Part shown: in pieces, positions 13,018 to 16,491 of the stretch
Numbering within the stretch: position 1 is the stretch's first letter
How the letters are laid out: each line of letters opens with the position of its first letter
NCBI RefSeq assembly: GCF_001644605.1
Contig: NZ_CP011388.1
Location: forward strand, 2,093,001 to 2,157,000
Direction of reading: 5' to 3'
Length of the DNA: 64,000 nt
Source of the DNA: Paenibacillus swuensis
GTDB taxonomy: Bacteria; Bacillota; Bacilli; Paenibacillales; DY6
The notes under the pieces: generated by a model
The model's input: the letters and a program-made list of their open reading frames with translations, nothing else
Databases searched by the model: none
Told to the model about the DNA's origin: nothing
Program-made: the position numbers and the translations under genes

Positions 13018-14499
13018 TTATTGAAGCACGATTTTGTCCATATTGAAATTTAATGAATGAGTACCGCTTCTTTTCAATTCAATGGTATTCGCACCGGCTT
13101 GCAAACCAACGGTTACATTGACGCTTCCCACGGTCCCCCATGAACCGGTTGCATTGAACGTCAACGTGTTGACCTTCGTATTGTTGACATACAGATCCAT
13201 AACTTTCGCCGTTGAATCCCCGTTCGCATAATGAACCTGCAGGCTGTGGTTACGGGTGGATGTTGCATTCACTCCATATCGTACGGCTGTATTCGGAGCA
13301 TTCCATAAGGAAACGCAGCCTCTTGCGGAATACGCTTCATAACCGGCTTCATTCGGATGCAGCGTGTACGATCCGGAAACGGTCGCATGCTCAGCCTCAT
13401 AACTGATGCTGTTGCTTGTAACTCTGCCCATTTCGGCATATTGGTTCATCAGATTGTTCAAGTGCGGCGCCACGTGATCCTTGGCAACCTGAACGCTGTT
13501 CTGGTCATTCCACGTCCATACCAGGTATCCCGCGTAGCCGTTTAGGTAGATTTTTTCCCCGATAGAGTAATGATTCTTAGGTGTGGTCGTGCCCGTATAT
13601 TGCGCGGCAGGATTGGCAAAAATCTCTCCGATAATCACAGGCTTATCCAAACCGAGACTGCTGGCAGGCGTAACCGTCGGGTCAAAATAAGGCGTGTACC
13701 AGTCATACCAATGGAAGTCGTAAAAATCCAGACCCAAACCGCTGTAGAAGTTGTACTCTTTGCCTACCCATTTCGCGGACGCGCTTCCCACGCTGATCGG
13801 CTGCGTCACATACGGGCGGATGAAATCGACGTTGTTTTTGATAAAGGTACGAAGCTGGCCCAGCGTAAACGCGGTTCTCGCTTGCGGTTGAGCCTGCGTG
13901 TTTCCGGCGCCGCCGCCGTCTTCATCGCGAACCATCCATTCGGGCTCGTTGATAATATCCCACCCCATAATTCCGTCGTGATTACCCAGGGCTTGGACAA
14001 TCGGTTTGATGGCGTTGTTGAAATAGCTGTTCTGAACCGTCGTATTGGAAACAATATCCTCATGATTCGACCATTGGTTCCACGCCATATCCATGTCATG
14101 CGCCACGAAGCAATAGTAGGCTTTCATCCCCTTGGAATGCAGGTAGTCGGTAGCTGTCACCATGTTCTGAACCCAGCCGTCAGGCAATCCGGTCACCGTG
14201 CTGCCCAGCCCGCTTCCGGAGAAGTTAGGCGCGGACATCATCCCGGCGAATACCCACCATCGAACTGTTTTGACACCCTTGGCTGCCATATCGTCAATTT
14301 GAGTCTTGATCGTGTTCCAGTTGGCATTGAAGCTGGCGTTGGAGAAATCATTGCCGTAATCATACCAGGCATAGTTGGTGCCCAGCGGGTAGTAGCTTTG
14401 ATTGCCTTTCCAAGCGACACTTTGCGCACTCGCCGTGAGGGGCAGCACGCTTGCAAGTAGAGTGATTAGCAGGGTGAACACAAGCCACGTCTTTTTCAT
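13018..14499 (-). CDS. Secreted GH5-like endo-glycanase with CBM6/35-like module
   Basis: The 493-residue protein has a signal peptide ending ASA-Q near residue 26. The clan GH-A catalytic domain covers about 30-355. The acid/base is E185 in WDIINEPEW and the nucleophile E292 in PVIIGEIF. The C-terminal 130 residues (from SYEAEHA to NFNMDKIVLQ) form a CBM6/CBM35-type beta-sandwich. GH5-like is the best guess; the hydrolysed polysaccharide (mannan, glucan or another hemicellulose) cannot be told from the sequence. A GGAGG site precedes the ATG, and a good cre-like site lies about 40 bp upstream. It may be co-transcribed with the 805-residue gene, since I see no terminator between them. Confidence 0.8.
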   Translation of the reverse strand: MKKTWLVFTLLITLLASVLPLTASAQSVAWKGNQSYYPLGTNYAWYDYGNDFSNASFNANWNTIKTQIDDMAAKGVKTVRWWVFAGMMSAPNFSGSGLGSTVTGLPDGWVQNMVTATDYLHSKGMKAYYCFVAHDMDMAWNQWSNHEDIVSNTTVQNSYFNNAIKPIVQALGNHDGIMGWDIINEPEWMVRDEDGGGAGNTQAQPQARTAFTLGQLRTFIKNNVDFIRPYVTQPISVGSASAKWVGKEYNFYSGLGLDFYDFHWYDWYTPYFDPTVTPASSLGLDKPVIIGEIFANPAAQYTGTTTPKNHYSIGEKIYLNGYAGYLVWTWNDQNSVQVAKDHVAPHLNNLMNQYAEMGRVTSNSISYEAEHATVSGSYTLHPNEAGYEAYSARGCVSLWNAPNTAVRYGVNATSTRNHSLQVHYANGDSTAKVMDLYVNNTKVNTLTFNATGSWGTVGSVNVTVGLQAGANTIELKRSGTHSLNFNMDKIVLQ

Positions 14500-14696: not shown

Positions 14697-14886
14697 TTTC
14701 TAACGAATCGTAGTAACGCTTAAACGCTAAATAACACCTTTGTTAATTTCTAACGAATCGCAGGCATCCTTAGGCACGTATTTGTTGGTTATATTCCTCT
14801 TATATGCCCTCTAAGCGTCATACCGATTCGTTAGAAATTCAAATCATCGCAAATGCCCTTCTAAGCGTCCTTACGATTTGTTAGAA
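14697..14886. repeat. Cluster of four 28-bp repeats in head-to-head arrangement
   Basis: The gene-free stretch 14552-14908 contains four copies of a unit like TTTCTAACGAATCG followed by five variable bases and ACGCTTAG. Two are direct (14697-14723, 14747-14775) and two inverted (14809-14836, 14859-14886), so the block can fold into a long hairpin. It has no open frame and no palindromic spacer array, so it is not CRISPR. It looks like an interspersed intergenic repeat family. Confidence 0.85.
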
Positions 14887-14908: not shown

Positions 14909-14955
14909 AAATAAGGACAAAGCATCAGATCCAATCTGATTGCTCTGTCCTTATT
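14909..14955 (-). terminator. Terminator after the GH105-like gene
   Basis: AATAAGGACA(A/G)AGC and its complement form a roughly 20-bp stem with one mismatch and one bulge. It lies about 90 bp after the stop of the minus-strand hydrolase gene. The T stretch is weak. Confidence 0.65.
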
Positions 14956-15042: not shown

Positions 15043-16491
15043 CTAACGCATAACATTACCCGCGGGCAACTCCTCAACACGGGACAGCGCGCTCAGCAAC
15101 TGGGCGAACAATCCCATCCCCATCTGGGACATTACACGATAGGAGCCCGTCTGTAACTCCATGCCGCCCTTATTCCCCTGCGCTACTCCGGTGAGGATCC
15201 CGTCCGGTGTTAAATACCGGATTAGCGACTCCTTGGTTCGGATCAGCGCTGATGGATCCTCCAGACTGTACCAGCCTCCCGCTATGGCCATGGCCGCCGC
15301 GGCCGCAATGCCGGCGGAACCGGAGGTGTCAGGCACGGATCCAGGGTCATCTAAGAACACTCCCCACAGACCGTCTTCCCTCTGCCTGCTCATGACCACA
15401 TTCAGCGACCTGTTAAGCTCGGCCTCGAGTACCGCGGTGTCCTGCGCCTGGCCCAGAACGTTCATCGTTCGGACCAATCCCAGCAGATGCCACGCGTGAG
15501 CCCTGGCCCAATCTTTAAAGGAACGGCTGCCATCCTGTTCGAGACGCAGGTACAGCCCATCGTCTTGAACCAGCTTACGCGATCTTAAAGTAAGCTGCTG
15601 GACAGCAAGCTTTCTCCATTCCACACCGTACCATTGCGCCGACACAGCCATAGGATAAGCCACCGTATAGCTCCCCTCGGCGGATAGCATCGTTCCGTCC
15701 AATATATTTCCCTCTTCATCCCGCGTACCGTACCAGAAATGGAGGGCTTGTTCCACTAAGGGATGGCGGCCCCGCAATCGGGCGATCGCCGCGAACGGCA
15801 ACGTGCCTTCCATTCCGTAAATTTCATCATCCATCGGTTCGCTGCGCGGATTTTCATACGTTAAGCGTTCCTGTTTATCCAGGAACACCTGCAGATGGGC
15901 AGTAGCGGCCGTCCGGTAGCTTTCTTGTCCCGTCGTTTCCGCTAAATCCAGCAGACCGTCCAGCACACAGCCCTCCATCCAGCCGAAGGGATGAATGGAA
16001 GAAATGGAAGCCATCGTAGCATAGAAATTCTCTAGAGAATCGCCTTGAACCGCCTGTTCAAACATGAGGTGGGGCAACAGCAGCTCTCCTCCGGCAACCA
16101 GATGAGGCTCCGCTGAAATCAAGAACCAGAAGGGGACGCTGCCCTTTACCAGTCGTAAAGAAACGCCTTCCTTCATGACCGCATCCGTCTGCGGCTCCGT
16201 TAACGATAACTCATGAGGTTGAAACACATTCGCATAACGGACATCCAGATGTCCAAGGAGCTCCCCCGACTGAGCCAGCTTGACCTCAATCATCATCTCT
16301 TCCCGGATATCGATAGCCACCGTCAACCTTAGCCTGGACGGACCTTGCCCTTGAACAGGCGACCAGCCCAAAAAGATATCTTCGCCGTGTGGTACTAAGG
16401 CTCTCGCTTTCCAGCCTTTCGGCACTCTTTTTCCTGCCGGAATTTCAACGTTCCCCGCCTCAATCCTGCTGATAACCCGCCTTGCTTCCAT
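15043..16491 (-). CDS. GH105/GH88-like unsaturated glucuronyl/rhamnogalacturonyl hydrolase
   Basis: This 482-residue protein has no signal peptide, so it should act in the cytoplasm. Residues 1-130 form a beta-rich N-terminal extension. The rest looks like an (alpha/alpha)6 barrel of the GH105/GH88 type, with the typical helical motifs FGWMEGCVLDGLLDLAE, WARAHAWHLLGLVRTM, and DTSGSAGIAAAAAMAI near residues 390-405. Family members remove the unsaturated uronic acid left by polysaccharide lyases. The beta-helix, lyase-like protein encoded nearby would be a logical partner. A GGAAGG site precedes the ATG. The assignment to GH105 rather than GH88 is tentative because of the unusual N-terminal extension. 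Confidence 0.75.
   Translation of the reverse strand: MEARRVISRIEAGNVEIPAGKRVPKGWKARALVPHGEDIFLGWSPVQGQGPSRLRLTVAIDIREEMMIEVKLAQSGELLGHLDVRYANVFQPHELSLTEPQTDAVMKEGVSLRLVKGSVPFWFLISAEPHLVAGGELLLPHLMFEQAVQGDSLENFYATMASISSIHPFGWMEGCVLDGLLDLAETTGQESYRTAATAHLQVFLDKQERLTYENPRSEPMDDEIYGMEGTLPFAAIARLRGRHPLVEQALHFWYGTRDEEGNILDGTMLSAEGSYTVAYPMAVSAQWYGVEWRKLAVQQLTLRSRKLVQDDGLYLRLEQDGSRSFKDWARAHAWHLLGLVRTMNVLGQAQDTAVLEAELNRSLNVVMSRQREDGLWGVFLDDPGSVPDTSGSAGIAAAAAMAIAGGWYSLEDPSALIRTKESLIRYLTPDGILTGVAQGNKGGMELQTGSYRVMSQMGMGLFAQLLSALSRVEELPAGNVMR

Follow-up and report, generated by a model that had tools for sequence, protein, structure and literature searches.

The window, the whole stretch of 64,000 nucleotides of the Paenibacillus swuensis chromosome that was analysed, contains a block of repeats between two minus-strand genes, one for a CBM6/CBM13-like module protein (13018–14499), whose start faces the block, and one for a glycosyl hydrolase family 88-like (GH88-like) protein (15043–16491), whose end precedes it. 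The block is a complete "quartet" of four ∼36-bp sites, two in direct and two in inverted orientation, and measures 185 bp motif to motif (14700–14884, no strand assigned), from the CTAACG of site A to the CGTTAG of site D, with distances of 50 bp between A and B, 85 bp between B and C, and 50 bp between C and D. The outer site A (14698–14735, plus strand) carries TTCTAACGAATCGTAGTAACGCTTA together with an A/T patch, its extent being taken from information profiles; the inner sites B (14748–14785, plus strand) and C (14799–14836, minus strand, inverted) were placed by motif position and spacing, and the outer inverted site D (14849–14886, minus strand) has one mismatch and reads TTCTAACAAATCG. 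The plus-strand copies of CTAACG start at 14700 and 14750, the minus-strand copies at 14834 and 14884, the last of them reading CTAACA; these are steps of 50, 85 and 50 bp, the direct copies within each arm being spaced exactly 50 bp apart. A separate inverted repeat with 15-nt arms (93%), just to the right of the element at 14910–14955, was not called as a terminator.

The 13-mer TTCTAACGAATCG occurs in the window at 14698–14710 (plus), 14748–14760 (plus) and 14824–14836 (minus), with a one-mismatch copy at 14874–14886 (minus). At up to two mismatches the window holds five matches, four of them in the block, against 1.85 expected, and 4 of 100 shuffles reach five. The initial annotation had described two direct and two inverted copies of a 28-bp unit; this arrangement is real, and the unit is longer, about 36 bp, with the A/T patch at site positions 30–33 and a second half that depends on class, being either ACGCTTAG-like or ACGCTATT-like. 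Conservation, which the same annotation ascribed to the 28-bp repeat, is a property of the four-site element.

Across the 5.01-Mb P. swuensis genome the 13-mer is found 17 times exactly and 23 times with one mismatch, compared with 3 occurrences of a backwards-pattern control, so that the unit is not confined to a single locus. An element model built without structure from 14 aligned copies finds 45 elements in this genome, 8 of them partial, and the family extends to other genera, which bears out the earlier suggestion of an interspersed repeat family conserved outside genes. The window quartet (2107697–2107888 in genome coordinates) matches this model with an E-value of 4.4e-33. Model rows weaker than E 1.6e-7 were left out (411905, 689645–689743, 725552, 1204371, 2231183, 54527 and 2426795); three of them resemble the other halves of elements split by insertion sequences (IS). 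The model-found elements contain all 17 exact 13-mers and 32 of the 40 overall, 8 lying outside, as judged by comparing coordinates by eye.

The geometry is nearly fixed. Among the 37 near-full-length P. swuensis elements the A–B distance is 50 bp in 36 and the C–D distance 50 bp in 33 (otherwise 49 or 51), and the central distance is 85 bp in 29, 84 in 6, 83 in one and 89 in one; despite this 50/85/50 spacing, the sequence between the sites is mostly unrelated among copies. Site statistics refer to 32 elements, five near-duplicate tandem copies of the 37 having been left out, and the division into CTTAG and CTTATT/CTAT classes follows a rough rule by which at least one element (1348733) is put in the wrong class. 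Near-identical quartets also stand in tandem, two or three together and 257–347 bp from start to start, at 411031–411895, 674069–674550, 1204537–1204984 and 2230660–2231111.

A dialect-free pattern search of named genomes, with spans of 176–202 bp allowed, found at least 119 stretches, and all of the 80 titles among the matches listed refer to Paenibacillus, Cohnella, Saccharibacillus, Fontibacillus, Gorillibacterium or a Paenibacillaceae bin. Spans among 132 listed matches are 184 bp (11), 185 bp (93), 186 bp (2), 194 bp (3) and 195 bp (23), and thus fall into two modes, 184–186 bp (106) and 194–195 bp (26), with nothing else in the allowed range; the two modes differ by one helical turn. In a survey of 149 genomes of the order, at up to three mismatches, the 185-bp form is present in 46 genomes and 19 of the 38 sampled genera, and the 195-bp form in 26 genomes and 3 genera. 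The highest count is 137 matches in one genome, and the backwards-pattern control gave one match in one genome. Presence is patchy within genera, and dialect and length mode are genome-specific; the strict pattern is blind to other dialects, as in G009, which matches the element model and not the pattern. Viral contigs gave zero matches to the quartet pattern. No published description of the element was found in the open-access literature; subscription journals and preprints were outside this search, so an earlier report is possible. The P. vortex genome paper counts repeats generically. We conclude that a family of rigid four-site chromosomal elements of 185–195 bases, apparently undescribed, is widespread in Paenibacillus relatives.

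The initial annotation proposed that the repeat acts in RNA or DNA structure, or is mobile. A role in DNA structure gains indirect support from the fixed spacing, from the one-turn difference in length and from a 10-bp A/T rhythm. Counted from each quartet end, A/T peaks lie near positions 2, 21, 31, 42, 52, 71, 81 and 92, and additional peaks near 7, 47–48 and 57 fall off the ∼10-bp grid. When positions −2 to 25 of every site are masked, which removes the half-sites and leaves the A/T patch at 30–33 in, the A/T period is 10.0–10.1 bp; of 1000 permutations, none matches this in any of the three sets, which comprise 64, 91 and 24 elements. The final A/T peak of the 185-bp form falls on the centre of symmetry, and the 195-bp form has one more period. 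A 10-bp A/T rhythm is the expected pattern of wrapped DNA, and suggests that the quartet may itself be wrapped.

A structured RNA or hairpin element, whether terminator, sRNA or 3′ UTR structure, is very improbable. Such an element would be expected to fold well, as a single quartet element does (z −7.9), to show double changes, of which at least one is present in 15 of 35 consensus pairs, and to prefer gene ends, as quartets do. Quartets lie outside called ORFs in 119 of the 132 matches listed, and among 96 listed intergenic quartets with both neighbours the genes are convergent in 42, tandem in 43 and divergent in 11 (16, 26 and 2 respectively of 44 quartets in P. swuensis). A hairpin, however, predicts that A should most resemble D, and B most resemble C. 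In the variable middle it is the same-arm neighbours A–B and C–D that are most alike, A–D and B–C being less so and B–C at background, so that site-to-site similarity gives no sign of a hairpin under pairing constraint and the RNA reading is disfavoured. The double changes can be ascribed to the sharing of a class by sites within one element, and the covariation term is only −0.7. The Rfam covariance models have no match in the window at the gathering threshold, no terminator-like site was scored at the window quartet, and fixed spacing with an A/T rhythm is also at odds with an RNA element. This candidate was rejected, despite the good single-sequence fold, on arm similarity and weak covariation.

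Three related g15 genomes yielded 77 quartets at 76 fetched loci, 73 of them with 50/94–95/50 spacing. In 30 orthologous pairs with both flanks aligned, core length is identical in 27, and substitutions amount to 7.2% in CTAACGAATC and 8.9% in the second half-site, as against 26–28% in the spacers and 34% in the 60-bp flanks. The 18 G031–G034 pairs have 8 gap columns in the core against 234 in the 60-bp flanks, the flank figure being too high because alignment ends were forced; among the 12 pairs that include G028, cores have 0–35 gap columns and 11 pairs keep their length. Sites and length are thus largely kept in orthologous quartets and spacers and flanks drift, a conservation that is partly built in because each pair consists of two loci fetched as model matches.

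Losses are also seen. When 11 G034 elements whose flanks matched a predicted stretch of G031 were checked there, six had no quartet (L276, L279, L282, L295, L301 and L304), two were shortened remnants (L284 and L285), and three were assigned to neither group (L274, L296 and L298); at the six quartet-less loci the differences extend past the element bounds. Neither a clean empty site nor a target duplication was found in the few comparable loci, nine "empty-like" cases being unclean; recent insertion gains no support from these loci, where the differences are larger than the element or leave shortened remnants. Many copies, moreover, sit at orthologous places, and the proposal of mobility is so far unsupported. 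In one genome, G038 (L089–L108), quartets lie inside a longer, recently amplified repeat whose inverted ends read GAGGCTGTCC, many copies being 92–95% identical across ∼220 bp. Were quartets relics of ordinary MITE or IS ends, this is the organisation that would be expected; G038 is its sole example and the quartet there is a passenger, the spacers and flanks of P. swuensis elements are unrelated between most copies, and the geometry is retained across copies, all of which makes this origin hardly credible.

Comparison of the ORFs near elements identified a family of ∼218-aa proteins that recurs right beside quartets in several genera. Among 911 ORFs at 119 listed loci, the distances of the large clusters are scattered and this family is the sole multi-genus adjoining group, so that a shared neighbouring function was rejected. 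The P. swuensis gene (410175–410810) is followed by three quartets. When the best match in each of 30 genomes is taken, a quartet lies within 1.5 kb at 21 of the 30 gene loci, compared with 0 of 90 shuffled loci. A CTAACG-free finder, which also picks up simple tandem repeats (L341) and finds nothing at L363, adds five further gene loci, of which L333 is weak and L355 has an unusual central distance; four loci have none. Close homologs (E≤1e-70, a threshold set by us) occur in 63 of the 149 genomes, and four or more quartets are found in 44 of these 63 against 9 of the 86 without the gene (p=3e-14); in genus g15 the 13 genomes that carry the gene have a median of 25 quartets, and the 13 that lack it a median of 2. 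Exceptions occur both ways: 15 of the 63 genomes have a close gene and zero quartets by the strict pattern, and gene-less G138 has 71 model matches (E≤1e-3), against 71 in gene-bearing G031 and 73 in G028 (E≤1e-5). The link is therefore strong over the order and not tight in each genome.

The ∼218-aa family is likely to be the partner of the quartets, and adjacency and co-occurrence suggest that its product may bind them. The window copy falls in the CTTAG class and the array adjoining the P. swuensis partner gene in the CTTATT/CTAT class, so that this gene is a putative partner of the window copy. Searches of viral contigs and phage records found no relative of the partner protein; of 72,556 plasmid records one, a 2.7-Mb replicon, has a relative.

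The C-terminus of the partner family is winged-helix-like; the quartet-side proteins give only weak HTH-type matches, and several P. swuensis paralogs have HTH-like C-termini. From sequence comparison the family is possibly nuclease-like. Quartet-side proteins have zero matches to nuclease families up to E=1, no partner-family protein passes curated family cut-offs, and the PD-(D/E)XK profile is not matched. Below threshold, three P. swuensis paralogs are similar to DUF559 and two to the MTES_1575 (REase_MTES_1575) nuclease domain, and the nuclease-like stretch has a D, an E and an H that do not vary in alignments A2/A3; it is from homology to these paralogs and the conserved D/E/H stretch, and not from matches of their own, that the quartet-side proteins appear nuclease-like. 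The resemblance to DUF559/MTES_1575 is thus a sub-threshold one, and the family differs in its extra winged-helix-like C-terminus and its adjoining site arrays. An AlphaFold model made with five sequences has a pLDDT of 55.8 and is confident in the C-terminal part only, and a sequence search of the PDB gave no credible relative, the two matches having E 0.84.

P. swuensis has six family members, and all six lie beside iterated DNA, of a different type in each case. The paralog at 410175–410810 adjoins the 50/85/50 quartets, that at 1709030 a ∼40/70/40 quartet with other simple repeats nearby, and that at 4772599, whose reading frame has an internal stop, a quartet of palindromic sites spaced 51/∼61/51. 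The paralogs at 2919172 and 3141783 adjoin 40-bp and 51-bp tandem repeats respectively, and that at 2392564 has inverted sites in a duplicated block, which the quartet finder missed; the five other than the first correspond to loci L359–L363.

Quartets are concentrated in the chromosome half around the origin of replication. With dnaA at 1.544 Mb, the origin-proximal half of the P. swuensis chromosome holds 32 of 35 loci (merged at 5 kb). Over five genomes the corresponding half holds 113 of 125 loci; positions for G028, G031 and G034 are those of the best-scoring rows only, and G035 adds one locus from the pattern survey. This bias may reflect better retention in the more conserved half. The six partner-family genes are not limited to the origin (0.16–1.78 Mb).

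BIME/REP-type elements of enterobacteria are intergenic, composite and built of inverted units, as quartets are, but differ in sequence, geometry and partner, and P. swuensis has no RAYT. REPIN/RAYT systems, known from Pseudomonas and E. coli (PMC3116915), comprise dispersed repeats with a distinct cluster beside each trans-acting gene and several flavours per genome. The quartet system likewise has dispersed extragenic repeats beside a trans-acting gene (at 21 of 30 loci, as above) and several types per genome, but the gene belongs to an unrelated family, and the element has four sites, fixed spacing and no hairpin constraint. RAYT (Y1_Tnp) is absent from P. swuensis G000 (one contig, 99.97% complete) and from G002–G005, G008, G009 and G011, all of which match the element model. 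Membership of REPIN/RAYT was rejected on this absence, and, given the different architecture, the quartets are similar to that system in layout only. The ram sites of RacA are short inverted repeats. In Bacillus subtilis they are dense near the origin, with others elsewhere (PMC6593407). Quartets resemble them in clustering around oriC, with best rows only for three of the five genomes, and the likeness is one of site distribution; a quartet differs in its ∼190-bp length, its four sites and its patchiness within genera.

Because the quartets are not a REPIN/RAYT member and have a ram-like origin bias, we propose that they form a wrapped nucleoprotein landmark, with a selfish replicator as the main rival. 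A small DNA-binding protein, probably of nuclease-like fold (410175–410810 in P. swuensis), would bind each site, and the fixed helical phasing would hold about 190 bp as a single wrapped nucleoprotein complex. The dispersed quartets would be passed on by vertical descent and retained for a benefit that the bound complex confers at its own locus, the likeliest being service as a landmark in organising or segregating the chromosome's origin half. That the window block is a copy of such an element, vertically kept, partner-bound and wrapped, marking the origin half, is the reading we tentatively favour, with a confidence slightly below even. A host function as origin-half landmark, taken by itself, is doubtful.

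The gene beside quartets, at times in arrays of two or three, its co-occurrence with the elements, the repeat type peculiar to each P. swuensis paralog (as in REPIN/RAYT, PMC3116915), the genome-specific dialects and length modes and the frequent loss between G034 and G031 would all be expected of selfish REPIN-like replicators, copied or moved by the partner from its array without gain to the host, with a geometry set by the transposition complex. This is quite possible, at a chance well under even. Such replicators fit less well with the differences between loci, which in the few that are comparable exceed the element or leave remnants and include no clean empty site or target duplication, with the retention of sites and length in old copies (in pairs chosen by model match), or with the near absence of relatives on mobile replicons, none of phage or viral type and one of plasmid type. 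An addiction or sink arrangement, in which the free partner is a toxic nuclease that quartets keep inert and copies are retained while the gene is present, would account for the conservation of every copy and for the gene link, and the invariant D, E and H would suit it; the putative nuclease activity, however, derives from the weak similarity of paralogs, and selection is not significantly relaxed in gene-less genomes, where the ratio is 0.37 versus 0.31 with overlapping intervals (indels, p=0.26). For relaxed selection after gene loss, 6 pairs give a ratio of 0.59 (interval 0.32–1.24), which is suggestive only and not significant, and the idea was set aside. We regard the sink as improbable.

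With up to 137 matches per genome, presence in 19 of 38 sampled genera for the 185-bp form alone, many copies at conserved places, an origin bias and a linked, unnamed protein family, the quartets would represent a whole unnamed genetic system, and a second independent case, beside REPIN/RAYT, in which dispersed repeats go together with a trans-acting gene. They raise testable questions as to the binder, the real wrapping of ∼190 bp, and the marking of the origin half by sequence. On a wider and rather unlikely reading, the paralogs belong to an unrecognised class of two-part systems, in which nuclease-fold winged-helix proteins, several to a genome, each recognise and wrap their own ∼40/50-bp-phased element and the quartet paralog would mark the origin half as an ori-domain organiser in many Paenibacillales; the paralog-wrapped elements would then be likened to a sequence-programmed particle, by analogy with a bacterial nucleosome.

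Some further observations concern individual loci. In two gene-less genomes the quartets L389 (G066) and L420 (G070) are apparently short of about one 50-bp unit. At P. swuensis 576776, 1464718 and 1529374 (L034, L031 and L049) quartets adjoin an apparent 5S rRNA, identified by reading, and a terminator-like hairpin. One end of an IS110-family insertion sequence joins a site inside a quartet at 727351, 1202654, 1582763 and 2232982 (L111, L118, L030 and L121). All four places found for its end, at up to one mismatch, are quartet junctions, the other end being read in L118 only; the L118 copy encodes a DEDD transposase, and this insertion sequence seems to target the quartet element.
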